Assembly (NCBI RefSeq): GCF_040436365.1
Contig: NZ_AP026369.1
Coordinates: 1,900,501 to 1,964,500, forward strand
Length of the DNA: 64,000 nt
Origin: Hydrogenimonas sp. SS33
Lineage (GTDB): Bacteria; Campylobacterota; Campylobacteria; Campylobacterales; Hydrogenimonadaceae
Reading direction: 5' to 3'
Shown here piece after piece: positions 841 to 58,838 of this stretch. Within the stretch, counting starts at the first letter, position 1; every line of letters starts with the position of its first letter. The notes beneath the pieces were generated by a model. That model was not told the origin of the DNA. It saw nothing but the letters and a program-made list of their open reading frames with translations, and did no database searches. The position numbers and the translations under genes are program-made.

Positions 841-851
841 GTTGAACATCC

Positions 852-879
852 GTTCACCGTTCACCGTTGACTGTTCACT
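852..879 (+). repeat. Heptad repeat tract, GTTCACC type
   Basis: Four consecutive 7-base units read GTTCACC, GTTCACC, GTTGACT, GTTCACT. Degenerate flanking units extend the tract to about 845-886. The tract fills the gap between two genes and ends 7 bases before the next ATG, in the place where a ribosome site would be expected. Confidence 0.8.
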
Positions 880-886
880 CTGAAAC

Positions 887-1846
887 ATGCGGCTGTTTCT
901 GCGAAAACTCCTCTACATCGGCGGGATGCTGCTGCTCATCTCGCTCATCTCTTTCCTCGCTATCCACGCCGCGCCCAACAGCTTCTTCGCGGCGGGCGAG
1001 CTGAACCCAAACATCACCAAAGAGTCCATCGAGCATCTCAAGGCGGTCTACGGCCTGGACAAACCGCTGTGGGAGCAGTATGTCCGCTGGGTCTGGGCGA
1101 TGCTGCATCTCGATTTCGGCCTCTCCTTCGCCAGCGGCAATCCGGTCATCGAAGAGATCGGCTCCCGTCTGCCGATCACTCTGTCGATGAACGTCATCTC
1201 CATGGTCTTCGTCTTCTTCATCGCCTTGAAACTGGGGATTCGAGCGGCTCTGTGGCAGGGGAGCGTGGCGGATCGGTCGGTCAAGCAGCTCTCTCTGGTG
1301 AGCTTCGCGATGCCATCTTTCTACCTGGCCCTGCTGCTGATCCTCTTCTTCGCGCTGAAGCTGGGGTGGTTCCCCATCAGCGGGTTGCAGAGCATCGACC
1401 CCAGGCAGGGTGTGATGAAGTGGGTCGACTACGCCTGGCACCTGGCCATTCCCATCTTCGTCATGGTCTTCGGAGGCATCGGCGGGCTGACGATGTATGT
1501 GCGCTCATTGACCCTGGAGATACTGAAAAGCGACTACATCTTCTTCGCCAAAGCCCGGGGGATCAACGACAGAACCATCAGACGACGCTTCATCCTGCCC
1601 AACCTGATGCCCTCCATCGTGACGATCCTGGGCCTCTCCCTGCCCGGGCTCATCGGCGGCAGCGTCATCATCGAGTCGATCTTCTCCATCAACGGCATGG
1701 GGTTGCTCTTCTACCAGTCGGCCCTGAGCCGGGATTACCCGGTCATTATGGGTATACTCATCATTACGGCATTTTTGACGCTACTTGGGAATGTGCTGGC
1801 GGATCTGACCCTTCTGAAGCTCAACCCCTACGCGGCAAGGGAGTGA
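887..1846 (+). CDS. ABC transporter permease, DppB/OppB family
   Basis: This 319-residue inner-membrane protein has the layout of dipeptide/oligopeptide/nickel permease subunit B. An N-terminal membrane helix (about residues 6-27) is followed by a periplasmic segment containing YGLDKPLWEQYVRW and LDFGLSF, both typical of the family, and then about five further helices. The cytoplasmic EAA-type loop that contacts the ATPase (KARGINDRTIRRRFILPNL) lies near residues 218-236. It would import a peptide or a small substrate with a binding protein, a DppC partner and ATPases. None of these lies beside it: the next gene is on the opposite strand and upstream is a secreted protein. It is therefore an orphan subunit here, and its substrate is unknown. 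Confidence 0.85.
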   Translation: MRLFLRKLLYIGGMLLLISLISFLAIHAAPNSFFAAGELNPNITKESIEHLKAVYGLDKPLWEQYVRWVWAMLHLDFGLSFASGNPVIEEIGSRLPITLSMNVISMVFVFFIALKLGIRAALWQGSVADRSVKQLSLVSFAMPSFYLALLLILFFALKLGWFPISGLQSIDPRQGVMKWVDYAWHLAIPIFVMVFGGIGGLTMYVRSLTLEILKSDYIFFAKARGINDRTIRRRFILPNLMPSIVTILGLSLPGLIGGSVIIESIFSINGMGLLFYQSALSRDYPVIMGILIITAFLTLLGNVLADLTLLKLNPYAARE

Positions 1847-1849
1847 GTC

Positions 1850-2068
1850 TCATGCCGCCACAGGTTTGAGGTAGTAGATTTTTGCGAGTTTTTTGGCGCG
1901 TTTCAAGTCGTTTTTGCGCAATGCGTCTCTGATTTCATCCAATTTAAGGGCATCTTCCAGTTTGAGGTAGGGTTCCCACCCTTTTTCGCTGTCGATGAGT
2001 TCCACCTCCACTTCAGCGGCATATTGCCCTTCATGCAGAAATTTTTTGATTTTTCTTGAGTGCATCAT
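1850..2068 (-). CDS. Small protein of a DUF4258-linked pair, antitoxin-like
   Basis: This 72-residue charged protein carries a stretch (GQYAAEVEVELIDSEKGW) followed by an acidic/basic helix ending in KKLAKIYYLKPVA. Small proteins of this type are commonly found next to DUF4258 genes, and I infer a toxin-antitoxin-like pair; the function is not established. Its ATG overlaps the stop of the upstream DUF4258 frame (ATGA), so the two were translationally coupled. A GGAGG-type ribosome site lies in the end of the upstream gene. The stop is 3 bases from the end of the convergent permease gene. It appears intact although its partner is frameshifted. Confidence 0.6.
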   Translation of the reverse strand: MMHSRKIKKFLHEGQYAAEVEVELIDSEKGWEPYLKLEDALKLDEIRDALRKNDLKRAKKLAKIYYLKPVAA

Positions 2069-2389
2069 CGCCTCCTTTTAAAATCTTCCGACCATTTGCC
2101 AGGGTCTGGCCTGTAGGCGGTAATTAAAACTGCGGGTTCATGACTTCCTTTGGGAATCCCCCAGACCACATGGACAGGTTTGCCTTCCCCATCTTTATTG
2201 AAGGACAAGACAACATGGTCCCTTACCGAAATTCGGGTAATCTTCCAAAACTTCCCCCGCCTCTATAGATACCAAAAGGTCACTGACGAATATGTTGTCT
2301 TCCGCCAATTCATCGTATCCGTGATTGGGAACGAGAACATCTCCATTTTTTACGAGGCGTTTGATGAGTTCGAAAGTTTCACTTTCCAA
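2065..2389 (-). pseudogene. DUF4258 protein gene with a frameshift
   Basis: Two reading frames together make one DUF4258-like protein. The first (TTG at 2389 to a TAA at 2195) gives a helix-rich start with NHGYDELAEDN and ends YPNFGKGPCCLVLQ. The family's next segment appears at once in another frame: KDGEGKPVHVVWGIPKG, then AVLITAYRPDPGKW, ending at TGA 2065-2067. Removing one T after the CAA codon near 2197 restores LVLQKDGEGKPVH, so the simplest explanation is a one-base insertion. DUF4258 proteins are about 100 residues and often paired with a small partner, as here. A sequencing error cannot be excluded; the start codon is uncertain. Confidence 0.65.
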
Positions 2390-2471
2390 ATCGTACCAAA
2401 CCTTTCAGCTTTTTTTTATTATAACCAAATTGGATGCAGCTTTTGTGAGATTGAGGAAGATGGGAAGAAAT

Positions 2472-2498
2472 CGCCCGTGCGCGGTGATCGCACAGGCG
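2472..2498 (-). terminator. Putative terminator downstream of nusA
   Basis: On the minus strand a 10-bp stem with one G-T pair (CGCCTGTGCG paired with CGCACGGGCG) closes a short loop 13 bases after the nusA stop and is followed by ATTTCTT. The T tract is interrupted, so termination may be partial. Confidence 0.55.
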
Positions 2499-2510
2499 TT
2501 TGTCGGAAGA

Positions 2511-3635
2511 TTATTCGCCGAAGAGCGCTTTGAGGGCGTCGGGGTTGACCGGTTTCTCCTCTTCGGTGCCGCCTTCTGTCGTGGTGCAGGTGGCGGTAGA
2601 GGGGAGTTCGACCAGGTCGATCTGGTAGCCGGTGAGCATGGAGGCGAGGCGGATGTTGATGCCGCTACGTCCGATGGCTTTGGACTTCTGGTCGCTGGGG
2701 AGTGAGACGATGGCTTTGTCTTCCTCGATCTTCACACTGCTGATGATGGCGGGGCTGAGGGCGCGGGCCACGAATATCTCCGGAATGGGGGAGTATTCGA
2801 TGCAGTCGATGTTTTCGCCGTTGAGCTCTTCGCTGACGGCGTTGATGCGCACCCCTTTCACACCGACGGTGGCGCCGACGGGGTCGACGGTGGGGGTCGT
2901 CGCCATCAGCGCCACTTTCGCCCGTTCACCGGGGATGCGGGCCGACTTCTCTATGACCACGAGCCCGTCCTGGATTTCGGGGACCTCCTGGCGCAGCAGC
3001 TCTTCGAGAAATTTGGGCATGGTGCGGGAGATCTCCAGGTGGATGCCGAACTTCTTGTCGATGCCCACATAGCGCAGAATGCCCTTGATCGTTTCGCCTA
3101 CCCTGAAGGACTCCCCTTTGATCCGGTTGCGTTTGGGCAAAACGGCGCGCACTTCATCGATTTCGATGTAGGTGTTCTCTTCCTTGTCGACCCGGGTGAC
3201 GGGGCCGCTGACTATGGTGCCGATCATCGCTTTGTACTTGTTGAACATCTGCTCTTCGACGAAGCGCTGGATGTGGTATTCGATTTCGTGGTAGAGGGCC
3301 GCGGCGGCGCTGCGGCCGTAGGACTCCAGGTCGATCTCGCTGGTCAGTTCGTCGCCCAGTTCCACGTCGGGGTCGATCTCTTTCGCCTCCTCGATGGAGA
3401 TGTACTTCTCCGGCTCGTCGACGAGGCGCGGGTCGCCCGGTTCGACGACGGTGATCTTCTGGTAGAGGGCGTAGCGCTTGCCCTTTTCGTCGATCTCCGC
3501 CTCGAAGTCGCACGCTTCGCAGATGACCCGTTTGGCGGTCTGGACGAGCGCCGTTTTGAAGGCCTCCTTGGCCGATTCGGGCGGCAGCCCCTTTTCATGG
3601 GCAATGGATTCTATGATATCTATGATTTTTTCCAT
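2511..3635 (-). CDS. nusA: Transcription termination/antitermination factor NusA
   Basis: NusA binds RNA polymerase and nascent RNA and tunes pausing, Rho-independent termination and antitermination in the cytoplasm. The 374-residue product starts MEKIIDIIESIAHEKGLP and shows the family order: polymerase-binding N-terminal domain (1 to about 125), S1 domain (about 135-205, GTIVSGPVTRVDKEENTYIEI split across its first strands), and tandem KH domains (about 230-345, with GVKGVRINAV and IGRSGINIRLAS). It lacks the C-terminal acidic repeats of enteric NusA, as is usual in Campylobacterota. It is transcribed alone on the minus strand here, without the rimP or infB neighbours seen elsewhere. A probable terminator follows. 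Confidence 0.95.
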   Translation of the reverse strand: MEKIIDIIESIAHEKGLPPESAKEAFKTALVQTAKRVICEACDFEAEIDEKGKRYALYQKITVVEPGDPRLVDEPEKYISIEEAKEIDPDVELGDELTSEIDLESYGRSAAAALYHEIEYHIQRFVEEQMFNKYKAMIGTIVSGPVTRVDKEENTYIEIDEVRAVLPKRNRIKGESFRVGETIKGILRYVGIDKKFGIHLEISRTMPKFLEELLRQEVPEIQDGLVVIEKSARIPGERAKVALMATTPTVDPVGATVGVKGVRINAVSEELNGENIDCIEYSPIPEIFVARALSPAIISSVKIEEDKAIVSLPSDQKSKAIGRSGINIRLASMLTGYQIDLVELPSTATCTTTEGGTEEEKPVNPDALKALFGE

Positions 3636-3763
3636 TTTGCTTGACAGTTCCTTTGAATGTTTCGTGATTGATTTTTTGTGCAGCGTGGGTGGTTTTCGTT
3701 TGAGGCGTCAATTATACTGAAAGCAATCTTTAACATTTATAAAAGATTTACCATTCTTTGGAT

Positions 3764-3769
3764 ATAATC
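3764..3769 (+). promoter_or_regulatory. Probable -10 box for the HP0268-like/miaB operon
   Basis: TATAAT in the context GGATATAATCGG lies 52 bases upstream of the ATG at 3821, in the AT-rich gap between the divergent nusA and this operon. No strong -35 is visible. Confidence 0.6.
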
Positions 3770-3820
3770 GGGCAATTATTACGCTCTCGTCGTAACGGGG
3801 GCCATACGAGGACCGAATCC

Positions 3821-4066
3821 ATGGAACTGAAAGCCGCACGAAAAGAACTCAACGCCAAGCCCAAAGCCGTCAGCCTCGACAAAATCGAGAAAGAGGTGGA
3901 AAAAGAGGGAGACAAAATCTTCTATTTCGACCGGGAGAACTCCCACAAGGACCTGATGGAGATGGTCGAACATTTCGAAGAGAAGGGGTATAGCGTCTAT
4001 TTCCGCGAAATCCGCTACGGACTGGACGAAAACGACTATCTCTACGAGGTGCACATACTGGTCTGA
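3821..4066 (+). CDS. HP0268-family protein
   Basis: This 81-residue protein matches the small HP0268 family of Campylobacterota. The recognisable core is [20 protein letters not shown], followed by [12 protein letters not shown] and [13 protein letters not shown] at the C-terminus; the H. pylori member has FYFAP.NAHKDM and DFLYELHII at the same places. The H. pylori protein has been reported to have nuclease activity. Whether this one does is not shown by the sequence. The ATG at 3821 is chosen over an in-frame start at 3758 because a GAGGAC ribosome-site-like sequence precedes it and the length then matches the family. It begins an operon with miaB, one base downstream, the same order as HP0268-HP0269. 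Confidence 0.8.
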
Positions 4067-4067
4067 C

Positions 4068-5994: not shown

Positions 5995-6073
5995 TTGGGT
6001 AAAATAGGTGTAACACTGTTTCGCCCCGCGGTACCGGACGGACTGCGGCGGCCGATTCCGCAAGGAGGCCCGC

Positions 6074-6544: not shown

Positions 6545-6605
6545 AGAGGCGATTAAGCAAAAATAGACTAATATTTAGAAAAACGTAAAGTTCGGAAGGG
6601 AAGGC

Positions 6606-7565: not shown

Positions 7566-7567
7566 CG

Positions 7568-8095: not shown

Positions 8096-8655
8096 GTTTC
8101 AAAGAGATCCGTCTCATACGCATGCTGATGTGGGTTCTTTTCTACCTCGTCGTCCTTTTCATTCTCATATTCGCCGTCGTCGTCCCCGCGGTGAAAGCCT
8201 ACAAACAGACCAACGCCGAACATGCCGAGATCAAGGCCCGTTACATGGCGGCGAAGAACGAGCACGACACCATACTGGACCGTCTCAAGGTTCTGCAGTC
8301 CAAAAACCGGAAAGTGGTGGAAGCTTTCGAAAACCGGTGGGACGAGAAGGCCTTTCTCGCTGCGGCGAAGCGTTACTTCCTCAAAGTGGACCTCAAACCC
8401 GTCGATATCAATTCGAGCGACCCCCATTTCAAAGTGTACGAACTCAACGCCATGGCGAAGATGGATTCGCCCCAGAACTTCTACCGCTTTCTGGATGCGC
8501 TCCCTTCCATTCCCTTCGTGATTCAGGCCGACTTTCCCATCGCCTTTCGTGCCCACGGTGGGGAGGAGATCGAAGGGGTTTTCAGAATCCGCGTCTATGA
8601 AGAGAAAAGGGGCAGCGAAAGCAATGCTTCCAAACCCTCCGTTTCGAAGAGGTAG
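8092..8655 (+). CDS. PilO-like single-helix membrane protein
   Basis: The 187-residue product has a short cytoplasmic start, one membrane helix at about residues 11-34 (LFYLVVLFILIFAVVVP), a helical coiled segment with KARYMAAKNEHDTILDRLKVL, and a C-terminal ferredoxin-like region. This is the arrangement of PilO/GspM. It follows the PilN-like gene with an ATGA overlap. No secretin (PilQ-like) gene follows; instead tilS converges and the last 61 bases of this gene overlap its 3' end. The C-terminal tail (KRGSESNASKPSVSKR) is low in complexity and may be a late extension into the neighbour. Confidence 0.65.
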   Translation: MSFKEIRLIRMLMWVLFYLVVLFILIFAVVVPAVKAYKQTNAEHAEIKARYMAAKNEHDTILDRLKVLQSKNRKVVEAFENRWDEKAFLAAAKRYFLKVDLKPVDINSSDPHFKVYELNAMAKMDSPQNFYRFLDALPSIPFVIQADFPIAFRAHGGEEIEGVFRIRVYEEKRGSESNASKPSVSKR

Positions 8656-9635
8656 GGGCGCACCTTTTCAGGGATCTTCGCTTTGCGGCACCGCTCCCGG
8701 AAGGGTTTGGGCATGACCGCCCGGCGGTAGGGCGCGACCCAGACCCTCTCCGGCTCGATGACGACTGCCCAGGTACCGGCGACCACCACATCCCGCTTTT
8801 GCAGAATCTCTCTTTTCTGCGCGCCGCTTGGCAGACAGCCGTTTCGTTTCAGGAGGCGGTCGATCTGGCGCATTAGCAAGGTCTCCTCTTTCGGGTGCCG
8901 AAAGAGCGTCAGCTCTCCGTGCCGAAAGAGAATCTCCGGGGAAGCGGCCAGGGTTCCGGCGTCTTCGAGCATATAGCGGAAGGAGCGGGCGATCCCTTCC
9001 GGGGACTCTTCCATCAAAAATTTTGCCGCCTGCTGCCGGAAGCGGTTGCGGGTGTAGGTTTCGTCATAGTTGCTCTCATCCACATAGTAGCGGATGCCCC
9101 GCGCTTTCAGATAGGCAAGAAGCCGCTCTTTCGGCGTCAGAAGCAGCGGTCTCACAAGCCGGTAGGACCTCGCTTCCCCTTTCCCGATTTCCGTTTCACG
9201 ATTCGCGATTTCCCGCTCCTCCAACGGCCGCATCCCTACCAGTTCCGCGCACCCCGCTCCTTTGCAAAGCTGCATCAGGTGCCACTCCAGCAGGTCGTCG
9301 AGCTGGTGGGCGGTGATGAGGGTGTCGTAACCGTGGGTCTGGATGAGCCTTTCGAAAAAGGCGTAGCGCTCCCGCCTGGCGCGGTGTTCGAAATCTTTTT
9401 TGCCGATTTTGGCGGTGTGCAGGTGGAGGCGTTTGCCGTCTCGTGCCGCCAGCGTCTCGGCGTAGGCGGCCTCTTCGTCGCTCTGGGGGCGGGTGCGGTA
9501 GTTGACCAGGGCGATGTCGAAGGGGATGTTCCGCTCTTTGAGCAGATGGTAGAGGGCGGTGGAGTCGACGCCGCCGGAGAAGGCCAGGAGGTTGCGGCCC
9601 TCAAGAAGCGGGGGAAGGGTGCTGCTTTCAAGCAT
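8595..9635 (-). CDS. tilS: tRNA(Ile)-lysidine synthase TilS
   Basis: TilS uses ATP and lysine to convert C34 of the CAU anticodon of tRNA-Ile to lysidine, letting it read AUA. The 346-residue product has the PP-loop motif SGGVDS at residues 20-25 and the family segment TAHQLDDLLEWHLMQLCKGAG near residues 109-129. After GMRPLEER comes an unusual insert (EIANRETEIGKGE), encoded by a heptad repeat tract, before the conserved YRLVRPLL. The C-terminal region is short, as in other Campylobacterota. The start at 9635 overlaps the rimO stop by 8 bases, so it is the second gene of a rimO-tilS operon. The 3' end overlaps the convergent PilO-like gene by 61 bases. Confidence 0.9.
   Translation of the reverse strand: MLESSTLPPLLEGRNLLAFSGGVDSTALYHLLKERNIPFDIALVNYRTRPQSDEEAAYAETLAARDGKRLHLHTAKIGKKDFEHRARRERYAFFERLIQTHGYDTLITAHQLDDLLEWHLMQLCKGAGCAELVGMRPLEEREIANRETEIGKGEARSYRLVRPLLLTPKERLLAYLKARGIRYYVDESNYDETYTRNRFRQQAAKFLMEESPEGIARSFRYMLEDAGTLAASPEILFRHGELTLFRHPKEETLLMRQIDRLLKRNGCLPSGAQKREILQKRDVVVAGTWAVVIEPERVWVAPYRRAVMPKPFRERCRKAKIPEKVRPYLFETEGLEALLSLPLFSS
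9181..9215. repeat. Heptad repeat tract, TTCCCGA type, inside tilS
   Basis: Five 7-base units read TTCCCGA, TTTCCGT, TTCACGA, TTCGCGA, TTTCCCG on the plus strand. They lie within the tilS coding region and encode the low-complexity insert between GMRPLEER and YRLVRP. The frame is kept through the tract. Confidence 0.8.
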
Positions 9636-17238: not shown

Positions 17239-19671
17239 TTTTCAGGCTGCCTACGCGGCAGTTTACCCAGCCCGACATACGCCTACACCGTTGTCGTGAT
17301 TTCTAAGCTGCCTACGCGGCAGTTTACCGGGTGGCGTGGCATCGTGGCGACGGTGAAATTTTCTAAGCTGCCTACGCGGCAGTTTACGAATCTCTGCGCA
17401 GAGAGGTCGCCGACCATCTTTTCTAAGCTGCCTACGCGGCAGTTTACCAAGACCGCTCTGCTCGCGTGGATCGCTCTATTTTCTAAGCTGCCTACGCGGC
17501 AGTTTACAGCCAGTAGACGAGATCGTCTTTTGCGATACGTTTCTAAGCTGCCTACGCGGCAGTTTACTTTTTGTCAAAGACGACCGGAACGGTATCGATT
17601 TTCTAAGCTGCCTACGCGGCAGTTTACGCACGGCTTCGGCGGCGTTACGGGCGACTGCATTTTCTAAGCTGCCTACGCGGCAGTTTACAAAGAGTACAAC
17701 GAAGCGCGTCGCCATCCTGCTTTCTAAGCTGCCTACGCGGCAGTTTACCATGTGCTCGACGTTGAAGTCCATGCCGATGTTTTCTAAGCTGCCTACGCGG
17801 CAGTTTACATGCCTGCAAATATTTCGACGGAGGATGAAATTTTCTAAGCTGCCTACGCGGCAGTTTACGCTTCCATATATGGAGAAAGTCGTTATCGGTT
17901 TTTCTAAGCTGCCTACGCGGCAGTTTACCACGGCCATCTGACTATTGACATCCATGATTTTTTCTAAGCTGCCTACGCGGCAGTTTACTTCGATTTTTCG
18001 TTCACCCCCAATATCGAGCATTTCTAAGCTGCCTACGCGGCAGTTTACTCGGGGCGGCGGCGTCTTGAGAGCGGCGAGGCTTTCTAAGCTGCCTACGCGG
18101 CAGTTTACGGTCGGGTTTGAGAACCTCAGCTCCGCCGTGTGTTTCTAAGCTGCCTACGCGGCAGTTTACGGCGGAGCACCGTCCGACAGCACTATCGACG
18201 GTTTCTAAGCTGCCTACGCGGCAGTTTACGACCGGAAATTCCGGGAAGACGTGCTGAAAATTTTCTAAGCTGCCTACGCGGCAGTTTACGCCGCGCTGCG
18301 CCCGCAGAAGCGGCACGAAAATTTCTAAGCTGCCTACGCGGCAGTTTACTTGCGTGCGTTTTTGGCAAACACCGCCTCTTTTTTCTAAGCTGCCTACGCG
18401 GCAGTTTACTTTTTGACCCGGTGGGCTTCGTCGAGGATCAGTTTTCTAAGCTGCCTACGCGGCAGTTTACATCACCACAAAAATGAAGGAACTCATCTGG
18501 AATTTCTAAGCTGCCTACGCGGCAGTTTACTAAGCCATTTTTGAAAACCGGGTTCGCTATATTTTCTAAGCTGCCTACGCGGCAGTTTACGAGTCGAAGC
18601 TCGACAAACTCGAACGCGGGATTTTCTAAGCTGCCTACGCGGCAGTTTACGCATTGAGGCGTTCGTCATGGAATGTCTGCGGTTTCTAAGCTGCCTACGC
18701 GGCAGTTTACCTCTACCAAACGCTTCATCTCAGGCTCCAGTATTTCTAAGCTGCCTACGCGGCAGTTTACGCTTTTTTGGCCCTGAAAGAGAAGGTTCTC
18801 AATTTCTAAGCTGCCTACGCGGCAGTTTACGACACGAATGCGTGGTACCACGCTTTCTTTTTTTTCTAAGCTGCCTACGCGGCAGTTTACATCTCCAGCG
18901 TTGTAGATACCGACGGCGATACTTTCTAAGCTGCCTACGCGGCAGTTTACTATGGGCGGAACATGGGGCGCGGCTAAAACTTTTTCTAAGCTGCCTACGC
19001 GGCAGTTTACTCCCTCGATGTGCGCCAGATACCATTTATAAGTTTCTAAGCTGCCTACGCGGCAGTTTACTGCTCCGAATTAGCCGCCGCCGCAGTTGGG
19101 CATTTCTAAGCTGCCTACGCGGCAGTTTACAGCTATTTGGAAAGCTGAGCAAAGAATTCGGATTTCTAAGCTGCCTACGCGGCAGTTTACTGCCGGACGT
19201 TCCGGGGCCGGTTCCCTGCTTTTTTCTAAGCTGCCTACGCGGCAGTTTACCTGATTGGGGAAATCATGGACTTTTTAGGTGATTTCTAAGCTGCCTACGC
19301 GGCAGTTTACTAACGTTGCACGAGCCACGTAACCACCACTTGATTTCTAAGCTGCCTACGCGGCAGTTTACAACGCGAAGAGTCCATTTACCGGGATGTC
19401 ACTTTTCTAAGCTGCCTACGCGGCAGTTTACTGACACGAATGAAACCCAACGATTGATTGACTTTTCTAAGCTGCCTACGCGGCAGTTTACTGGAACGAA
19501 AGCGCCTAAACCGTTTACGTTGTTTTCTAAGCTGCCTACGCGGCAGTTTACGGTGAGAAATGATTCATGTCGTAAAGATCAACTTTCTAAGCTGCCTACG
19601 CGGCAGTTTACGGCAGAGACATGAAAACGATATTTTTGTAATGTTTCTAAGCTGCCTACGCGACAGTTTAC
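17239..19671 (-). CRISPR. Type I-F CRISPR array, 41 repeats and 40 spacers
   Basis: The 28-bp repeat reads TTTCTAAGCTGCC, then TACGCGGCAGTTTAC on the plus strand. In crRNA sense (minus strand) it starts GTAAACTGCC and ends GGCAGCTTAGAAA, with a CTGCC/GGCAG stem and a GCGTA loop, the I-F type cut by Cas6f to leave an 8-base CTTAGAAA 5' handle. Thirty-five spacers are 32 bp and five are 33 bp. The repeat at 17239-17266 has three changes in its first seven bases, marking the old, leader-distal end. The repeat at 19644-19671, next to the leader, has one change inside the stem (GCGGCAG to GCGACAG). All others are identical. The array is transcribed leftward from the leader beside cas6f. Confidence 0.97.
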
Positions 19672-28077: not shown

Positions 28078-29331
28078 TTAAAAACTGCTGACAATATTTT
28101 TGAAAAGTTCGCCCCGTTCGGCGTAGGAGGAGAACTGGTCCAGGCTGGCGGCGGCGGGGGAGAGGATGGCGACGCTTCGTGTGTCGTGGACCTTTGCGAT
28201 GGCTCTAACGGCGCGTTCCAGGGTGCCGCTCACTTCGCAGGGGATGGCGTAGCGGCGGGCCAAGTCGGCGACCTTTTCTTTGTTGCTGCCGATGGCGTAG
28301 ATGTGCAGGTCGTAGCTCTTCAGTGTCTCGAAAAGCGGTGTCAGGTCGACCCCTTTGTCGTCGCCGCCCAGGATGAGGTGGATGGGGCGCTCTTTGAAGG
28401 GTTTGAGCGCCTGGACTGTCGCGTCGATGTTGGTCGCTTTGGTGTCGTTGACCCAGAGTCGCCCCAGGGCGTCGGTCACGCGCTCCTGCCGGTGCGGTTC
28501 GAGCCGGAACGCGTTGATCTTGTCGTAATCGACCCTGTCGAAGAGGATCTTCGCCACGCCCATCGCCAGTACCGCATCCAGCAAAAAGGCGCCTTCGAAA
28601 TCTATTTTCTCCACATCGATGCCGAAATAGCGGGCGATCGCTCCGGTCTCTTTATAGGGGATTTTGAACCCTTCCGTCGGGGTGTCGGCGAAGGCATCGG
28701 GCAGGAGGATCGCCTCCCCTTCACGCATGCTTCTCAAAGGTTTGAGCTTGTCGGCCAGGTAGGCCGCTTCGCCCCCGTGCCAGCTCAGATGGTCCGGTGT
28801 CATGGGCAGAAGCAGGTAGAGGTCGGGTTTGGCTAAGCGGGTGTAGTGAAGGGTAAAGGAGCTGGTCTCCAGCACCCACAGGGGGCGGGTCTCGTCGAGC
28901 AGGGCCAGCGGTGTGCCGATATTGCCGCCGCTGACCGCCCCCCGGTCGGCCAGGAGGTGGGTGAGCATCTGCGTCGTCGTCGTTTTGCCGTTGGTACCGG
29001 AAACCCAAATCGTGTAAGGTCGACTAAAATCTTCCCATTCCCGATTTCCGCTTCCCGTTTCCCGAATTTTCCGACCCCGCTCGGAGAGAAAGAGGTCGTA
29101 TTCGCTGATGAGGTGCTTTGCCTTGGCAATGAGCGGATGCGAAGGAGGAAAGCCGGGGCTGGGGATCTCCACATCGCTTCGGTCGGGGTCGAAGAGAGAG
29201 GGGGGAAGGAGGCGGTTGCCTTCGGCATCCTTGTGCGGGACGGTGACATGGTCGTCGTAGAAGTCGCAGGGCCCCAGTTTCTTGGCGATGGCGCGGGTCG
29301 TTTTGCCGTATCCGAAGAGGGAGATGGTCAC
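28078..29331 (-). CDS. murD: UDP-N-acetylmuramoyl-L-alanine:D-glutamate ligase MurD
   Basis: MurD adds D-glutamate to UDP-MurNAc-L-Ala in cytoplasmic peptidoglycan precursor synthesis. The start is GTG at 29331, giving MTISLFGYGKTTRAIAKKLG, the conserved N-terminal Rossmann strand; the longer frame to 29421 only translates heptad repeats. The 417-residue product has the ATP loop VSGTNGKTTTTQM near residue 110, NIGTPLALL, and LWVNDTKATNIDATVQAL near residue 285. A short insert, RETGSGNREWEDF, lies directly before the ATP-loop strand and is encoded by a TTCCCGA-type heptad tract. It follows mraY in the same direction, as in other Campylobacterota. Confidence 0.93.
   Translation of the reverse strand: MTISLFGYGKTTRAIAKKLGPCDFYDDHVTVPHKDAEGNRLLPPSLFDPDRSDVEIPSPGFPPSHPLIAKAKHLISEYDLFLSERGRKIRETGSGNREWEDFSRPYTIWVSGTNGKTTTTQMLTHLLADRGAVSGGNIGTPLALLDETRPLWVLETSSFTLHYTRLAKPDLYLLLPMTPDHLSWHGGEAAYLADKLKPLRSMREGEAILLPDAFADTPTEGFKIPYKETGAIARYFGIDVEKIDFEGAFLLDAVLAMGVAKILFDRVDYDKINAFRLEPHRQERVTDALGRLWVNDTKATNIDATVQALKPFKERPIHLILGGDDKGVDLTPLFETLKSYDLHIYAIGSNKEKVADLARRYAIPCEVSGTLERAVRAIAKVHDTRSVAILSPAAASLDQFSSYAERGELFKNIVSSF
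29031..29065. repeat. Heptad repeat tract, TTCCCGA type, inside murD
   Basis: Five 7-base units on the plus strand: CTTCCCA, TTCCCGA, TTTCCGC, TTCCCGT, TTCCCGA. The consensus is the same as in the tract inside tilS. It encodes the RETGSGNREWED insert ahead of the MurD ATP loop. Confidence 0.8.
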
Positions 29332-29353: not shown

Positions 29354-29381
29354 GTGAATAGTGAACAGTGAACGGTGAACG
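29354..29381. repeat. Heptad repeat tract, GTGAACA type, upstream of murD
   Basis: Four units: GTGAATA, GTGAACA, GTGAACG, GTGAACG. It lies 23 bases upstream of the murD start, in the mraY-murD gap, and is the reverse complement in type of the tract at 852-879. Confidence 0.85.
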
Positions 29382-29403: not shown

Positions 29404-29431
29404 CCAATTCCAAATGACCAATAACTAAACA
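29404..29431. repeat. Heptad repeat tract, CCAATGA type, after mraY
   Basis: Four degenerate units: CCAATTC, CAAATGA, CCAATAA, CTAAACA. The tract begins directly beside the mraY stop codon, so the mraY-murD gap is built mostly of two different heptad types. Confidence 0.65.
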
Positions 29432-32089: not shown

Positions 32090-32110
32090 GTAAACAGTAA
32101 ACGATGAACG
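32090..32110. repeat. Heptad repeat tract, GTAAACA type, after gpmI
   Basis: Three units: GTAAACA, GTAAACG, ATGAACG, starting 8 bases after the gpmI stop codon. Confidence 0.7.
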
Positions 32111-32139
32111 GAAAAAAGGGAGCGAAGCGACCTTCCCAA

Positions 32140-32167
32140 AACTTTTAGTTTTTAGTTTTTAACTTTT
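32140..32167. repeat. Heptad repeat tract, AGTTTTT type, before fabG
   Basis: Four units: AACTTTT, AGTTTTT, AGTTTTT, AACTTTT, ending 22 bases before the fabG ATG and just before its AAGGAG site. A different sequence type from the tract 30 bases earlier but the same 7-base step. Confidence 0.75.
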
Positions 32168-32936: not shown

Positions 32937-32980
32937 CCCGTGAAGCGAACGACACCTGCGTGTCGTTCGTAGGGTTATGC
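32932..32980 (+). terminator. Long hairpin at the fabG stop codon
   Basis: Arms GCATAACCC and GGGTTATGC enclose a second perfect stem GAACGACAC / GTGTCGTTC with loop CTGC. The outer left arm contains the fabG stop codon. No T tract follows, so it may act as a message-end stabiliser or Rho-dependent stop rather than an intrinsic terminator. Confidence 0.45.
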
Positions 32981-33153
32981 GAGCTTGCGGTCTGCACTCC
33001 TGCAACCGCAAGGTCCGGGCCGCATGAGCCCGGCATGAAGTACCGAAAAAGTGAGAACTGACTCCGTCAAAGAGAAGAGCGGCCCGGCGGGTCCCCGTGA
33101 AGCGAACGACACCTGCGTGTCGTTCGTAGGGTTATGCGAGCTTGCGGTCTGCA
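32937..33153. repeat. Two identical 60-bp direct repeats between fabG and acpP
   Basis: Bases 32937-32996 and 33094-33153 are identical over 60 bp, starting CCCGTGAAGCGAACGACACC. Each copy contains the GAACGACAC / GTGTCGTTC hairpin. Both copies continue into related but diverged sequence with CCGCAAGG. The 157-base period includes a spacer with another small stem (GGGC, 7 bases, GCCC near 33018). Only the first copy has the outer arm that includes the fabG stop, so the second seems to be a duplicate of the first. No gene is seen in this stretch. Confidence 0.85.
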
Positions 33154-33187
33154 GACTTGCGGCCGCAAGGCCGATCGAAAAACGCAA

Positions 33188-33236
33188 TTTCCACTTTCCC
33201 GATAACCAATGACCATTGACCCATGACCAAATAACA
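33188..33236. repeat. Heptad repeat tract, mixed TTTCCCG and ATGACCA types, upstream of acpP
   Basis: Seven consecutive 7-base steps: TTTCCAC, TTTCCCG, ATAACCA, ATGACCA, TTGACCC, ATGACCA, AATAACA. The change from one consensus to another occurs without loss of the 7-base phase. The tract lies about 50 bases upstream of the acpP ATG and may overlap its promoter. Confidence 0.8.
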
Positions 33237-39974: not shown

Positions 39975-40030
39975 GGTGAAGGGTGAACGGGAAACAGTAC
40001 ACGGTGAACAGTAAACATTGAACAGTAAAC
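39975..40030. repeat. Heptad repeat tract, GGTGAAC/AGTAAAC type, upstream of rpe
   Basis: Eight consecutive 7-base units: GGTGAAG, GGTGAAC, GGGAAAC, AGTACAC, GGTGAAC, AGTAAAC, ATTGAAC, AGTAAAC. It is the longest tract in the window and fills the gap between the CheX-type gene and rpe, ending just before the rpe ribosome site (GAGAAGGAG). Confidence 0.9.
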
Positions 40031-44622: not shown

Positions 44623-44624
44623 GG

Positions 44625-46643: not shown

Positions 46644-46678
46644 CCCCAATCGCCAATGACCAGTGACCAATGACTTTG
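46644..46678. repeat. Heptad repeat tract, GACCAAT type, upstream of uvrB
   Basis: Five 7-base units: CCCCAAT, CGCCAAT, GACCAGT, GACCAAT, GACTTTG. The tract lies in the divergent gap between uvrB and the ZapB-like gene, directly next to the latter's TATAAT box. Confidence 0.8.
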
Positions 46679-47745: not shown

Positions 47746-47770
47746 ATCACGCTATTTTGCTTTATTTAAT

Positions 47771-47795
47771 GGGCCGGAGCATTTTTCTCCGGCCC
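47771..47795. terminator. Hairpin between the two pseudopilin genes
   Basis: A perfect 9-bp stem, GGGCCGGAG / CTCCGGCCC, with a 7-base T-rich loop lies 26 bases after the first pseudopilin stop. The downstream T tract is missing, so it may attenuate rather than fully terminate. Confidence 0.55.
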
Positions 47796-47855
47796 AATCC
47801 CCTTGATTCCAACAAAACAATCAATGAACCGACAATCCAATAATGAGGAAAATTT

Positions 47856-48281: not shown

Positions 48282-48282
48282 T

Positions 48283-50127: not shown

Positions 50128-50135
50128 CGGTGTGA

Positions 50136-50141
50136 TATAAT
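50136..50141 (+). promoter_or_regulatory. Probable -10 box of ispG, placing the start at the ATG
   Basis: TATAAT ends 7 bases before the A of the ispG ATG and no ribosome site lies between. The arrangement is what a leaderless message would show. Confidence 0.5.
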
Positions 50142-50147
50142 CGCTCC

Positions 50148-51209: not shown

Positions 51210-51257
51210 AGAGGCTATTTGGCATCGAAATCGAAGAAAGAGTGAAACAGGGAGCCT

Positions 51258-53952: not shown

Positions 53953-54759
53953 CTTCTGGCCGTAGAGGAAGATGATCCAACTGACATAGATCCAGAGCAT
54001 GAAAAAGAGCAGAATGCTGAAAGAGCCGTAGATCGTCGTGTAGGTTTTGGTATGGAGCGTGTAGTAGATGAAGAGGTTTTTGCCGATGTACCAGACCAGC
54101 GAGGCGAAAAAGCTGGAGATAGCGGCGGCTTTGATGCGGATGACGGTGGCCGTCGATATTTTGTAGGTGACGAAAAAGAGGGCCCAGATGATGAGATAGG
54201 GGAAGAGGGCCAGGAAGTCGATATGGCTGGTGTAGGCCGTGCTGTCGAGAAGTTTCTGGACCTTGACCGAAAGGTAGATGGAGGCCGCCAGTGCCATGGG
54301 GCCCAGCGTGATGAGGGTCCAGTAGGTGGTCAGTGCACTCCAGAACCCCTTTTGGCGGGTGCGGAAGATCTTGCCGACGATATATTCGTAGTTCTGGAAG
54401 AACATCACCGAAGCGACGATGATGAAGATGAAACCGATGGTCCCCAGCTTCGACGTGTTGGCCAGAAAGGTGTCGATATACTGCGAAACCGTTTCGTGGG
54501 AGGCGGGCATGATGTTGGAGAAGATAAACTGCTTGATACGCTCATACTGTTCGCTGAAGTTGGGGAGCCGCACGATCAGCGAAAAGCTCACCAGCAGTAG
54601 CGGAATGATCGTGAAGATGGTATAGAAACTGAGGCTTGCGGCGTAGTAGGGGATATCGGGGTCGTAGAACGCTTTGAGTTTGCAATAGAGGGTTTTGAGT
54701 GAGAAGTGGGAAGTGGAAAGTGAGAAATTCGTTTCGTTGCTCTGCTTCTCACTCCTCAC
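53854..54759 (-). CDS. YihY/BrkB-family (UPF0761) inner-membrane protein
   Basis: The 301-residue product has the YihY family's six membrane helices, with PYYAASLSFYTIFTIIPLLL near residue 38 and SFSILLFFMLWIYVSWIIFLYGQKL (near residue 248, quoted from its ends) as the typical first and last helices. The family was once called ribonuclease BN; its true role is unknown. The start is GTG at 54759. The first 20 or so residues (with NFSLSTSHFSLKT) are encoded by a heptad tract, and the GAGGAG ribosome site is itself part of another heptad tract. The C-terminal charged tail overlaps the end of comEC on the other strand. Confidence 0.8.
   Translation of the reverse strand: MRSEKQSNETNFSLSTSHFSLKTLYCKLKAFYDPDIPYYAASLSFYTIFTIIPLLLVSFSLIVRLPNFSEQYERIKQFIFSNIMPASHETVSQYIDTFLANTSKLGTIGFIFIIVASVMFFQNYEYIVGKIFRTRQKGFWSALTTYWTLITLGPMALAASIYLSVKVQKLLDSTAYTSHIDFLALFPYLIIWALFFVTYKISTATVIRIKAAAISSFFASLVWYIGKNLFIYYTLHTKTYTTIYGSFSILLFFMLWIYVSWIIFLYGQKLCYFLNEIEKKKKHHPHLKIECDPKPHGEEGE
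54699..54726. repeat. Heptad repeat tract, GTGAGAA type, inside the start of yihY
   Basis: Four units on the plus strand: GTGAGAA, GTGGGAA, GTGGAAA, GTGAGAA. They encode the FSLSTSHFSL portion of the YihY N-terminus. Confidence 0.8.
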
Positions 54760-54779
54760 TTCATACTCCTCACTTTGCT
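54745..54779. repeat. Heptad repeat tract, CTCCTCA type, between glcD and yihY
   Basis: Five units: CTTCTCA, CTCCTCA, CTTCATA, CTCCTCA, CTTTGCT. Read on the minus strand, it contains the last bases of the glcD stop, the GAGGAG ribosome site and the GTG start of yihY. Confidence 0.85.
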
Positions 54780-56160
54780 AAAGCGCCATTTTCCCCGGAT
54801 TGAGGATATTGTTGGGGTCGAAGGCCCGTTTGATGTCGCGGAAGAGCTGCAGCTCCTCTTCTGTGAAGGCCAGGTGCATGAAGGGGGCCTTGGAGAGGCC
54901 GATGCCGTGTTCTCCGCTGAGGGTTCCGCCCAGATCGACGGTGATGCGGAAGATCTCTTCGATTGCCTGATGGCCGATTTTGAGCTGTTCGGAGTCACTG
55001 CCGTCGACCATGACGTTGGTGTGGACGTTGCCGTCTCCCGTGTGGCCGAAGCAGGGGATTTTGACGTTGTACTTCAGGGCCACGTCGTTGATGCGCCGAA
55101 GCAGTTCGGGCAGAACGGAGCGGGGGACGGTAATGTCTTCGTTGATCTTCTTGGAGCCGTAGATCGTGATGGACTGGCTGGCGTTGCGGCGGGCGAACCA
55201 GAGGTCCGCCGCCTCGGCGTCGTCTTTGGCCTTTTTGAAGTCGCTGCAGCCGTTTTCCATGAAAACCTTTTCGATGACATCCATCTGGTAGCTGATCTCT
55301 TCGGGCAGGTTGCCGTCTACGTCGGTGATGAGGATGGCGCCCGCATCCACCGGGAGCCCCTTGTGGTACTTCTCCTCCACGGCGCGGATAGTGAGGTTGT
55401 CCAGAAACTCCATCGCCACGGGGGTGACGCCGCTGGCCATCGTTTTGTAGACCGCCTCCATCGCCGCTTCGACACTGGGGAAGATGCCCATGGCGGTCTT
55501 TTTGAGTTTCGGCTTGGCGATCAGCTTGAGGGTGATTTCGGTGATGACCGCCAGGGTCCCTTCGCTGGCGATGAGGATGCCCGCGATATTGTAGCCCGCC
55601 ACATCCTTGATGGTCTTTTTGCCGGCGCGGATGATGTCGCCGTTGGGGCGGACGGCGCGGATGGCCATGACGTAGTCCTTGGTGATGCCGTATTTGGCCG
55701 CCCGCATGCCGCCGGCGTTTTCGCTGACGTTGCCGCCGATGGTGCTGTACTCCTGGCTGGCTGGGTCGGGCGGGTAGAAGAGCCCTTTGGCCTCCACCGC
55801 CTTCTGCAGCTCCATGTTGATGACCCCCGGCTGGACCACGGCGACCATATTGTCCATGTCGATTTCGAGGATCTTGTTCATATGCTTCTCCATCGCCAGG
55901 ACGATGCCGCCGTTGGCCGGAAGCGCGCCGCCGGTGAAGCCGCTGCCCGCCCCGCGGGGGACGATGGCGATTTTGTGTTCGTTGCAGTAGCGCAGAATGG
56001 CGCTCACATCCTCTTCGTGGCGGGGAAAAACGACGGCGTCGGGTTCGTACCGCTCCCTCGTGGCGTCGTAACTGTAGGCGATCATGTGGGCCTTGTCGGC
56101 GTAAATGTTGTCACTGCCGACAATGGCGCTCAGGGCGTGGATATGTTTGGGGTCGATCAC
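54778..56160 (-). CDS. glcD: FAD-linked glycolate/D-lactate oxidase, GlcD-like
   Basis: The 460-residue FAD-binding PCMH-type oxidoreductase oxidises a 2-hydroxy acid such as glycolate or D-lactate. Its FAD site shows VPRGAGSGFTGGALPANGGIV near residue 65 (quoted in part), PASQEYSTIGGNVSENAGG near residue 133, and the C-terminal FGHTGDGNVHTNVM near residue 375 with the substrate-site histidines, ending with GTLSGEHGIGLSKAPFM. The C-terminal part is of the FAD-oxidase type. It overlaps the PgbA-like gene (ATGA). H. pylori has glcD (HP0509) beside pgbA (HP0508), the same order. Confidence 0.9.
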   Translation of the reverse strand: MIDPKHIHALSAIVGSDNIYADKAHMIAYSYDATRERYEPDAVVFPRHEEDVSAILRYCNEHKIAIVPRGAGSGFTGGALPANGGIVLAMEKHMNKILEIDMDNMVAVVQPGVINMELQKAVEAKGLFYPPDPASQEYSTIGGNVSENAGGMRAAKYGITKDYVMAIRAVRPNGDIIRAGKKTIKDVAGYNIAGILIASEGTLAVITEITLKLIAKPKLKKTAMGIFPSVEAAMEAVYKTMASGVTPVAMEFLDNLTIRAVEEKYHKGLPVDAGAILITDVDGNLPEEISYQMDVIEKVFMENGCSDFKKAKDDAEAADLWFARRNASQSITIYGSKKINEDITVPRSVLPELLRRINDVALKYNVKIPCFGHTGDGNVHTNVMVDGSDSEQLKIGHQAIEEIFRITVDLGGTLSGEHGIGLSKAPFMHLAFTEEELQLFRDIKRAFDPNNILNPGKMAL

Positions 56161-56879
56161 TTTTGTTGCTCCAGTCGTTTGTAGAATCGGTCGAAATCGT
56201 CGATTTTGTGCTCCGTCCAGTCGTAGAAGGGGGAGGGAATCTCCTCGAAGCGGTTGTAGAAGGGCTGCTTGAACTTTTTCGGCTCGACGGAGGCGACGTC
56301 GACATGGGCTACCTTCTGCCAGCTTTTACAGTCGAGAAAATCGGTGCCGTCGGCATACATGAACATGACGATGCCCAGAGCGAATTTGTCGCACATGCGC
56401 TGGAAATGCTCCTTGTCCGGAATCGGCGATTTGTCCTTCGCCAGCTCCGCCGCCATCAGGTCGGGGTGGATGATGTGGAGTTTGGAAAAGCTCTTTCGGG
56501 CCTTGTCGAAGGATTTTCGGTTGGGGACGATCGGCAGGACCCTGTCGTAGAGATAGCCCAGGATCACCGTGTCTCCCTGTCGGGGCGGCGTCTTGACGGA
56601 GGGGAGGTTGGGCTGTTTCAACCCGGTGTAGGGAAGCAGCTTTATCGACGTTTGCGCCGCGTCGCTGCGGGTGACCACGGCCGAGGCGACGATCGCTTTG
56701 TGGGTCGGGTTGTAGGTGTGGATGACGATGCCGCTCACCCCGGCGGGGATGTTCTTCAGGTCCACGGTGCCGGTCTTGCCGCTCACCTGCTGCAGGGTGC
56801 CCGTTTCGCTCCGGGGTTCGGCGGCGAAGAGGGTGCCGGCGGCGAGAGAGATGAGAAAAAGCGTCTTGAAAAGTTTCAT
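56157..56879 (-). CDS. PgbA-like secreted protein (plasminogen-binding N-terminal domain family)
   Basis: The 240-residue product starts with a signal peptide (KLFKTLFLISLAAGTLFAAE, cleaved near residue 20). The mature part contains KTGTVDLKNIPAGVSGIVIH, typical of the family first described in H. pylori PgbA. Then come an RQGDTVILGYLYDRVLPIVPN segment near residue 100 and a DKFALGIVMFMYADGTDFLDC region near residue 163. In free-living relatives binding of plasminogen is unlikely to be the native role. It sits directly upstream of glcD, overlapping by 4 bases, and is divergent from the M23 peptidase gene, matching the order HP0506 to HP0509. Confidence 0.8.
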   Translation of the reverse strand: MKLFKTLFLISLAAGTLFAAEPRSETGTLQQVSGKTGTVDLKNIPAGVSGIVIHTYNPTHKAIVASAVVTRSDAAQTSIKLLPYTGLKQPNLPSVKTPPRQGDTVILGYLYDRVLPIVPNRKSFDKARKSFSKLHIIHPDLMAAELAKDKSPIPDKEHFQRMCDKFALGIVMFMYADGTDFLDCKSWQKVAHVDVASVEPKKFKQPFYNRFEEIPSPFYDWTEHKIDDFDRFYKRLEQQK

Positions 56880-56976
56880 GGAATTTCCGTTCTTTGAAAT
56901 TGTCCGATTATACTCAAAGCATCTTTTAAAGCCTCTTTAACGGGCTTTGAAGTAGAATGGGCCTTAAAAACGGACG

Positions 56977-58194
56977 GTGATTTTGAGAAGACTCTTTTTC
57001 GCATGCTTGCTGCTGGCCGCTGCCCTGCACGCTTCGATGGTCAAAAAGGAGCCCTGGCCCCAGGGTGAGAGTTTCCTGCACTACCTGGCGCACCACGACA
57101 TGCCCCAGTCGATCTACTGGAATCTGGACAAGGAGGCCAAGGAGCTCTGCGAGGAGATCCGCGCCGGCGCTCCCTACTACACGATGACCGACGACAACGG
57201 CACGACGATCGAGCAGGTGCTGATACCGGTTAACGAAGAGCTTCAGATCCACCTGGTGAAGACGAAAGAGGGGTACCGCTTCGAGATGATCCCCGTCATC
57301 TACCGCAAGATCGAAGATATTTTCGCCCTTCCCATCCGACGTTCCCCCTACCAGGATATCATCGAAGCGACCCATAACCGCAAGCTCGCCCACGCCTTCG
57401 TCGACGCCTTCAAAAACAGTTTCGATTTCACCCGCCTGCGCAAGGGGGACGAACTGGCCGTCGCCTACGAAGAGAAGATGCGCCTGGGGGAACCCTACGG
57501 GTTGCCCGTCATCCGGGCGGCGATGATCGAGCAGCACAAAAAGCCCCACTTTCTCTTCCGTTTCCATGACCGCTACTACGACGAGAAGGGGAAGGAAGTG
57601 GAAGGGTTCGTCTTCCGTAAACCGGTGAACCATGTGCGCATCACCTCCCGTTTCACCCTGCGGCGGTGGCACCCCATCCTGCACCGTTACCGGGCCCATC
57701 TGGGGGTCGATTTCGGCGGGCGGGTCGGCACGCCCATCTATGCGGCGGCGGACGGCCGCATCATCTTCGCCGGGCGCCTGGGAGGCTACGGCAACGTTAT
57801 CAAAATCCGCCACCGCGACGGCTTCATGACGCTCTATGCCCATATGCACCGTTTCAGGCGGGGGATGCACCGCGGAAAATATGTCAAAAAGGGGCAGGTG
57901 ATCGGCTACATCGGTTCCACGGGGATGAGTACGGGCCCCCACCTGCACTTCGGCCTCTACAAAAACGGCAGGCCCGTCAACCCCCTGGGCGTCATCAAGG
58001 TGACCAGGAAAACCCTCTACGGCAAACGCAGGAAAGCCTTCATCCGCTATGCCGAAACGATGAAGCAGAAGCTTCTCAACGCCGCCAAAACCCATGCCTG
58101 CGCCGTCCGACTCGACGACCTCTCCAGGAGCCGCTACTGCATCGACGAAGCCGACGCCGACAAAACCGACGGCAATGAAAGCAGTGGCGGATGA
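56977..58194 (+). CDS. Periplasmic M23 endopeptidase, Csd3/HdpA-like
   Basis: The 405-residue product has an N-terminal signal peptide (LRRLFFACLLLAAALHAS), a long inhibitory/LytM-like front domain (about 30-200, with PQSIYWNLDKEAKELCEEI) and a C-terminal peptidase M23 domain. The zinc site is HLGVDFG (His241, Asp245) and HLHFGLY near residue 322, with LYAHMHRF supplying the catalytic His near 289. It would cut D-Ala-meso-DAP crosslinks and trim peptides, affecting cell shape as Csd3 does in H. pylori. The start is GTG at 56977. It overlaps the Nudix gene by 4 bases. Confidence 0.9.
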   Translation: MILRRLFFACLLLAAALHASMVKKEPWPQGESFLHYLAHHDMPQSIYWNLDKEAKELCEEIRAGAPYYTMTDDNGTTIEQVLIPVNEELQIHLVKTKEGYRFEMIPVIYRKIEDIFALPIRRSPYQDIIEATHNRKLAHAFVDAFKNSFDFTRLRKGDELAVAYEEKMRLGEPYGLPVIRAAMIEQHKKPHFLFRFHDRYYDEKGKEVEGFVFRKPVNHVRITSRFTLRRWHPILHRYRAHLGVDFGGRVGTPIYAAADGRIIFAGRLGGYGNVIKIRHRDGFMTLYAHMHRFRRGMHRGKYVKKGQVIGYIGSTGMSTGPHLHFGLYKNGRPVNPLGVIKVTRKTLYGKRRKAFIRYAETMKQKLLNAAKTHACAVRLDDLSRSRYCIDEADADKTDGNESSGG

Positions 58195-58748
58195 TCGAAA
58201 AGGTCCGCCTCGAACCTCTCGTCGATTCCCGGTTCGTCCGGCCGGCTTTGGTGCGCTACGTGCAGGACGGCGTCGAGAAGAGCTGGGAAGTGATCCGCGC
58301 CCACGACAGTGTCGCCGTGTTCCTTTTCCACCGGGAAAAAGAGGCCTTTTTGCTGGTCAGGCAGTTCCGCCCCGCCGTCTATCTGCAAAATGGAGACGGC
58401 TTTACCTACGAGCTCTGCGCCGGTATTGTCGACAAAGCGCTGCCCCTGGTGCAGATCGCCAAAGAGGAGATCGAAGAGGAGACGGGGTATGGTGTCGATG
58501 CGGCGAAGATCGAAAAAGTGACCTCTTTCTACACCTCCGTCGGTTTCGCCGGTTCGAAACAGACCCTCTTCTATGCGGAAGTGGATGAAAGAATGAGAGT
58601 GGGCGAAGGGGGAGGCATCGACGACGAAAGCATCGAAGTGGTGGAAGTGCCGCTTTCAAAAGCGCGGGAATTCATGTTCGACGAATCGATCGTCAAAACA
58701 CCCGGACTGCTTTTCGCGTTTATGTGGTTTTTTTCAACGAAAAGTTAA
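58191..58748 (+). CDS. Nudix hydrolase with a variant Nudix box
   Basis: The 185-residue product has the Nudix fold of the ADP-ribose/nucleotide-sugar pyrophosphatase type (VAVFLFHREKEAFLLVRQFRPAV, residues about 41-63). The box reads GIVDKALPLVQIAKEEIEEETGY; compared with GX5EX7REUXEEXGU it keeps the terminal EEIEEETG but has Leu for the first Glu and Glu for the Arg. The metal ligands in EExxEE are intact, so it may still work on an unusual substrate. Its start overlaps the M23 gene. The stop codon lies in a heptad repeat tract. Confidence 0.8.
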   Translation: MIEKVRLEPLVDSRFVRPALVRYVQDGVEKSWEVIRAHDSVAVFLFHREKEAFLLVRQFRPAVYLQNGDGFTYELCAGIVDKALPLVQIAKEEIEEETGYGVDAAKIEKVTSFYTSVGFAGSKQTLFYAEVDERMRVGEGGGIDDESIEVVEVPLSKAREFMFDESIVKTPGLLFAFMWFFSTKS

Positions 58749-58768
58749 AAACTAAAAACGAAAAGTTT
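58741..58768. repeat. Heptad repeat tract, AAAACTA type, at the Nudix stop codon
   Basis: Four units: AAAGTTA, AAAACTA, AAAACGA, AAAGTTT. They include the TAA of the Nudix gene and are the complement in type of the AGTTTTT tract before fabG. Confidence 0.75.
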
Positions 58769-58810
58769 TGGTAAACGCTTCGCTTTTCATTTGTGCTTTT
58801 TCGCTTTCCC

Positions 58811-58838
58811 CCAATGACCAGTGACCAATAACCAATGA
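58811..58838. repeat. Heptad repeat tract, CCAATGA type, after aguB
   Basis: Four units: CCAATGA, CCAGTGA, CCAATAA, CCAATGA. They lie 6 bases from the stop of the convergent aguB gene. The tract 43 bases away is a different type. Confidence 0.85.

Follow-up and report, generated by a model that had tools for sequence, protein, structure and literature searches.

Heptanucleotide arrays of a Hydrogenimonas genome are parts of composite dispersed repeats

Bacterial tandem repeats of 7-nt units (heptamers) have been noted for decades without an accepted origin. Direct repeats of TAACTGA occur in gene junctions of Beggiatoaceae, are patchily distributed across phyla, and were proposed to be protein- or RNA-binding sites near start codons (MacGregor 2015, PMC4679880). 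GGGAATC of Xanthomonas and GGGGAYT of Nostoc (PMC4692102), together with the GGGACCG elements of Geobacter (PMC2700814), are dispersed and typically comprise four units. Here we analyze such arrays in the genome of Hydrogenimonas sp. SS33 (G000; other G-codes denote comparison genomes), beginning with a 64,000-nt stretch of contig NZ_AP026369.1 (positions 1,900,501 to 1,964,500, hereafter the window), in which a preliminary description had listed 14 heptamer tracts. That description regarded heptamer repeats as known from cyanobacteria and knew of none in Campylobacterota. The first statement holds and extends to Xanthomonas, Geobacter, Beggiatoaceae, and Bacteroidetes, and for Helicobacter pylori there is a report of one heptanucleotide, GTGATTA (cited in PMC4692102). 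We find that the tracts are not free microsatellites but belong to small composite elements, dispersed over the genome, in which arrays are combined with hairpins or with an 85-bp core.

Period-7 arrays and the elements that contain them

Using a +1/−1 lag-7 score with a threshold of at least 12, we detected 11 segments in the window compared to 0 in every one of 8 block shuffles, and the same score yielded 0–2 segments at lags 4, 5, 6, 8, 10, 11, and 13 and 4 segments at lag 9. All 14 tracts listed earlier were recovered, both in position and in unit sequence; the 11 scoring segments all belong to them, nowhere else in the window scores, and the tracts beginning at 29404, 32090, and 54745 fall below the threshold when taken alone. 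The signal extends beyond the window. In a genome sample of 40 spread stretches (795 kb of 2,254,567 bp) plus the window, covering 36% of the genome, intergenic lag-7 identity was 0.274 compared to 0.261 for shuffled sequence (z 7.9), with an echo at lag 14, and coding DNA had no lag-7 excess. Strict scoring of this sample gave 52 intergenic and 34 coding tracts of period 7, many of the latter probably being miscalled open reading frames (ORFs) of a simple gene finder, and at most 4 intergenic tracts for each other period bar the harmonics 14 and 21. The preliminary description had named two outcomes that would refute it, a lack of genome-wide lag-7 excess over shuffled sequence, and tracts that prove to be chance low-complexity DNA missing from all relatives. 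Neither is the case: the genome-wide excess, the dominance of period 7, and the shuffle controls rule out chance low-complexity DNA, and relatives also carry tracts. Weaker period-8 arrays of GGTGAGAA/GGTGGGAA adjoin heptamer arrays at L016:4980–5020, L033:9140–9175, and L024:19300–19360, and thus the step is not strictly 7 for that word.

The composites consist of arrays of about four heptamers with short hairpins in between. Outside the window, arrays are paired around conserved sequence, and the best-preserved form in G000 is an 85-bp core with arrays on both sides, present in 22 near-full copies at 84–99% identity, with the element order (AGTGNNN)n – 85-bp core AGTATCAGCGAAGCTGATTTTGAATGGGTTGTCAAGGGTTTTCGTCAATTCTACGAAATTTTAAACTGCGAATCATTCTCAACGC – (CCAATGM)n – AAAAACTGAAATCAAAGAGGGGCGAAGCCCCGTTC – (ACTAACG)n. 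Left arrays contain 1–21 units of AGTGAGC, AGTGAGA, AGTGGGT, AGTGAGT, or AGTGAAA, and right arrays are mostly CCAATGA or CCAATGC; 19 × AGTGAGC at L035:12801 exemplifies a long perfect array. Spacers between arrays are hairpin-rich both in G000 (z −0.86 vs 0.24, p 9e-4) and in g5, a second genus of the phylum (z −1.94 vs −0.29, p 6e-7). Among the copies, total array length rises as the core approaches its consensus (rho 0.68, p 5e-4), which is a pattern of birth and decay. Neither viral contigs nor plasmids matched the core, and neither the core nor the hairpins matched Rfam at gathering thresholds. The core (e.g., L046:1501–1585) carries, on its minus strand, a palindrome resembling a Fur box (TGAGAATgATTCTC), as well as a TTGACA hexamer, and could be a displaced promoter region. 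A separate palindromic dispersed repeat of ~123 bp (ACTTACGTTACGC...GCGTAACGTAAGT), resembling a miniature inverted-repeat transposable element, lies at L002:10198–10319 and about 15 other places, and also at L096:3088–3210 in G002, with 81–93% identity between G000 and G002.

The 85-bp core is species-specific, with G003 retaining a fragment that adjoins an (ACTACTC)n array. AGTG-type arrays were found in 9 of 12 congeners and in 0 of 8 genomes of other families. The sequence (CCAATGM)3 occurs in 5 of 397 genomes of the phylum, namely G000 and four of genus g5, and controls gave 1 match in one genome. Composite arrays are also present in Nitratifractor salsuginis (G075), a member of g5. In this genus, hairpins with conserved stems (GCGTTGC-n3-GCAACGC; TGGGATTGCTATCCCA) stand between successive arrays of about four units, and the slots between conserved stems hold different words at different loci. 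Unit number is tight, with 4–4.9 units in 69 of 109 tracts and >5 units in one; the g5 stretches were picked around CCAATGM matches, which biases array density there and unit number less so. Period-7 tracts are rare in 20 further genomes of the order, each of which was sampled once over at most 20 kb. Outside the phylum, exact (CCAATGA)3CC is found, among the matches listed, in Cyanobacteria, Bacteroidota, Planctomycetota, Verrucomicrobiota, and Desulfobacterota, in a scan of CCAATGA alone, and several of these listed loci have further heptamer words alongside. Draft assemblies break at heptamer arrays (contigs C4, C7, and C8 of G016; C9, C42, C56, C162, and C180 of G008), and array numbers in draft genomes are therefore underestimates.

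Tracts of the window look like decayed or different members of such composites (coordinates refer to the + strand). Several are paired. In the junction upstream of a minus strand gene that we take, from its SGTNGKTT motif, to be the Mur ligase gene murD, four GTGAACR units at 29354–29381 have as partner a degenerate CCAATGA array at 29404–29431; this junction is nearly missing from G003. Three GTAAACR units at 32090–32110, in a block missing from G002, are followed by the spacer AAGGGAGCGAAGCGACCTTCCC (32111–32139), which contains a GCGAAGC mini-hairpin, and by four AGTTTTT/AACTTTT units at 32140–32167. The GTGAGAA array at 54699–54726 is the left arm of an inverted pair whose mate, a CTTCTCA/CTCCTCA array, occupies 54745–54779, and an AAAACT-type array at 58741–58768, followed by a GCTTCGC mini-hairpin, is paired with four CCAATGA units at 58811–58838. 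Other tracts are a four-unit array of CCGTTCA/GTTCACC type (reverse complement GGTGAAC; lag-7 18/21) between two + strand genes at 852–879, eight GGTGAAC/AGTAAAC units at 39975–40030, and about 4–5 CCAATGA-type units (GACCAAT) at 46644–46678. Most tracts fill gaps between genes, as had been described; the TTTCCCG-type arrays at 9181–9215 and 29031–29065 do not, being located inside tilS and murD, respectively. Two further repeats of the window deserve mention: a different dispersed hairpin repeat, GTGAAGCGAACGACACCTGCGTGTCGTTCGTAGGGTTATGCGAGCTTGCGGTCTGCA, with two copies in the junction at 32940–33180 and also present in the orthologous G002 junction, and 60-bp tandem units at 17721–19551 with a constant part, TTTCTAAGCTGCCTACGCGGCAGTTTAC, and variable spacers, which look like an array of clustered regularly interspaced short palindromic repeats (CRISPR).

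Gain and change of arrays

We compared ten sites with the orthologous junctions in G003 and G002, a comparison with relatives that the preliminary description had proposed. At most of these sites, including two with full 85-bp elements, the congener junctions are compact and free of arrays, one exception being J2 in G003, which has an AGTGAG-type stretch and a hairpin. Inside tilS (ORF 8595–9635, minus strand), which encodes a PP-loop ATPase (PF01171), the 9181 tract is part of a 42-nt (6 × 7) in-frame insertion of 14 amino acids that is present in G000 alone of 20 aligned genomes; G016 has a shorter, unrelated insertion. The TTTCCCG-type word of the insertion is common elsewhere in G000 and missing at the tilS site in relatives. 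Empty sites, the tilS insertion, and the 22 scattered cores together show, as judged by sequence comparison, that array-bearing segments were gained at many sites. Since six 7-nt units equal 14 codons, a non-coding repeat can evidently be accommodated in a conserved protein that stays intact.

Once present, arrays change. Variant units form fewer runs than expected, with 74 compared to 117 expected in G000 and 557 compared to 862 expected in loci of other phyla; this blockiness argues for local duplication rather than independent point mutation. Inheritance of the array word together with the core was ruled out, as core relatedness does not predict the word (p 0.21 and 0.69). L043 and L044 share the same core sequence and differ in their right arrays, and L041 and L042, whose cores are identical but for 2 positions, carry 11 × AGTGGGT and 18 × AGTGAGA, respectively. 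Word changes within an array maintain the 7-nt phase: at 33188–33236, TTTCCCG-type units pass into ATGACCA-type units in phase, confirming an earlier observation, and the same was seen at L035:436–600. At the level of these sequences, the comparisons show that arrays evolve more quickly than the core, both in length and in word, and that they grow, shrink, and homogenize locally in whole 7-nt units.

Variation at one place is seen in the linker of the essential gene murD, where tract 29031 sits immediately before the Walker motif SGTNGKTT. Significant lag-7 arrays occupy this slot in 7 of 12 genus members (G000 included), with five words, all in frame: (CTCAACA)4 in G003 and G004, (CATCCAA)4 in G009, (AACGAAC)4 in G001 and G006, (AACCNAA)5 in G002, and (CGGGAAN)5 in G000. 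The linker has no array in G005, G007, G011, or outgroups and a weak one in G010 and G012. In a word scan of congeners, exact double CTCAACA arrays were found in G003, G004, and G008 only; exact double CATCCAA arrays in G009, plus single places in G003 and G004; and exact double AACGAAC arrays in G001 and G006 only, with one further locus in G006. Most murD-slot words recur elsewhere in their own genome and are rare or absent in other genomes, and the slot is thus usually filled by a word in use at other places in the species. Either recurrent insertion into a site that tolerates it or the substitution of an older array could produce such words, and their diversity suggests that cells insert or rewrite arrays in 7-base steps.

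Candidate mechanisms

We consider it somewhat better than an even bet that the tracts derive from composite dispersed repeats, as old or incomplete copies produced by dispersal, duplication and contraction in 7-nt steps, and decay. Growth would proceed by slipped-strand or tandem duplication at replication, favored beside stable hairpins. Dispersal would copy words already present at other places in the genome, through either ectopic recombination or a mobile step of non-autonomous kind, and each species would therefore have its own word set. Point mutation would then turn copies into the degenerate tracts of the window, and a regulatory role would be unnecessary. Several observations weigh against this explanation. 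Searches for dispersal machinery found no transposase or autonomous partner, and no target-site duplication was seen at the compared junctions. The g5 peak at four units is not predicted by free slippage. The diversity of words in the murD slot is better explained by replacement or repeated insertion than by a single array drifting slowly, and the G001 word in that slot, AACGAAC, has no second locus in G001.

Among the alternatives, pure local slippage, in which 7-nt near-repeats arising by chance are amplified in place, seems unlikely to us as a full account. Its step would be supplied by a published idea according to which 7 nt are in contact with the polymerase (Mrazek 2007, as reported in PMC4679880), and the same source describes heptamers as the most abundant class of long simple sequence repeats in many genomes; period 7 dominates every other period here, and variant units are blocky. 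The contact-length idea agrees with array growth but leaves both the shared words and the murD slot unexplained. The same few words occur at many unlinked loci, the tilS segment has no counterpart in relatives yet matches a word used elsewhere in G000, and arrays travel with a conserved 85-bp core. The preliminary description had proposed a process with a 7-base step, acting by slippage, a dedicated enzyme, or RNA-templated copying. The step itself is supported, and slippage covers array growth, but not the recurrence of words at many unlinked places.

We assign a similarly small likelihood to a bacterial system acting in trans by which stretches of roughly four heptamers, drawn from a word set shared across the species, are written or rewritten. 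If true, such writing would give the murD slot its species-specific words and paralogous elements a faster swap of words than mutation of their cores, and the unexplained heptamer repeats of Cyanobacteria, Xanthomonas, Geobacter, and others would have the same basis.

Still less probable is a dedicated templated enzyme, a reverse transcriptase (RT) or telomerase-like, that would copy RNA templates into runs of about four heptamers, yielding words common to a species. The tight unit number of four in g5, the discrete, recurring words, and the different words in the murD slot would all fit, and G000 encodes an RT, a 587-aa protein with a C-terminal Toprim-like part at L232:1384–3147 (G000:C1:388429) that PADLOC matches to the RT-Toprim_I-C retron. 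However, this RT is of a retron type, RT matches occur in just 2 of 13 genus genomes (G000 and one match in G005), a search with RVT_1 found no match in G002, G003, G004, or G008, of which G003, G004, and G008 are array-rich, and blocky variants indicate local duplication. The lack of any RVT_1 match in array-rich congeners leaves the earlier suggestion of a dedicated enzyme or of copying from RNA unsupported.

Equally improbable, in our judgment, is selection for arrays as protein- or RNA-binding sites near start codons that are held at about four copies. Arrays are indeed concentrated in gene junctions, being about 14–18 times denser in noncoding than in coding DNA (17.6 times with stricter ORFs), and unit number is close to four. 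However, words vary widely within and among genomes, arrays adjoin stops as well as starts and occur within tilS and murD, and most compared junctions are array-free in congeners. Convergent and co-directional junctions, moreover, are about equal in arrays per junction (0.12 and 0.105, respectively, compared to 0.069 for divergent junctions).

Just as improbable is that a Y1 (RAYT) transposase moves REPIN-like hairpins and the heptamers are carried along. Hairpins punctuate the arrays, and G000 and several congeners encode a Y1_Tnp protein of 257 aa that has a helix-turn-helix at its C-terminus, but the flanks of the Y1_Tnp gene have neither REP hairpins nor arrays, no Y1_Tnp match was found in G001 or in array-bearing G008 (88% complete, with many arrays), and the core has no obvious GTAG-tagged palindromic doublet. 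Two further ideas were ruled out: a stop-codon cassette, as CCAATGC contains no stop in any frame of either strand, and a general requirement for G-quadruplexes, as AGTGAGC, GTGAACA, ACTAACG, and AAAACTG have no G-runs.

Relation to known heptamer systems

The novelty lies in two findings, the composite build of the elements in Campylobacterota, Nitratifractor among them, and the slot in murD. The genus offers a tractable case, with a 22-copy element of graded age, empty sites, an in-frame tilS insertion, and the murD slot, and slippage, mobility, and templated rewriting can therefore be separated in it.

The closest resemblance is to the heptanucleotide short tandemly repeated repetitive sequences (STRRs), or long simple sequence repeats, of Cyanobacteria (Mrazek 2007, as reported in PMC4679880), which also have 7-nt tandem units, are mostly intergenic, and use several words per genome. 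Exact 7-nt units exceed chance and other periods in G000 and are mainly noncoding, and the word CCAATGA is common to both, occurring, among the matches listed, in Nostoc, Oscillatoria, Mucilaginibacter, Planctomycetota, and Verrucomicrobiota. In contrast to STRRs, the arrays studied here are combined in a set order with hairpins or an 85-bp core, and some lie in frame within tilS and murD. Small dispersed hairpin repeats of 21–27 nt are reportedly embedded in heptamer arrays of Nostoc punctiforme and are said to be probably mobile. Our elements likewise tie tiny hairpin repeats to heptamer arrays, a likeness that need not mean identity. The hairpins here lie between arrays that differ in word rather than within one array, and the principal core measures 85 bp.

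As in the TAACTGA repeats of Beggiatoaceae, heptamer direct repeats occupy gene junctions with a patchy distribution, but a single dominant word lies upstream of starts there, whereas here there are many words and no start-codon bias. Most words here are unable to form G-quadruplexes, unlike those of Xanthomonas and Nostoc. Finally, the composites resemble REPINs (Bertels and Rainey 2011, PMC3116915) in being small, non-autonomous, dispersed hairpin elements, and differ from them in that neither linkage to a RAYT nor the defining palindrome doublet was found.

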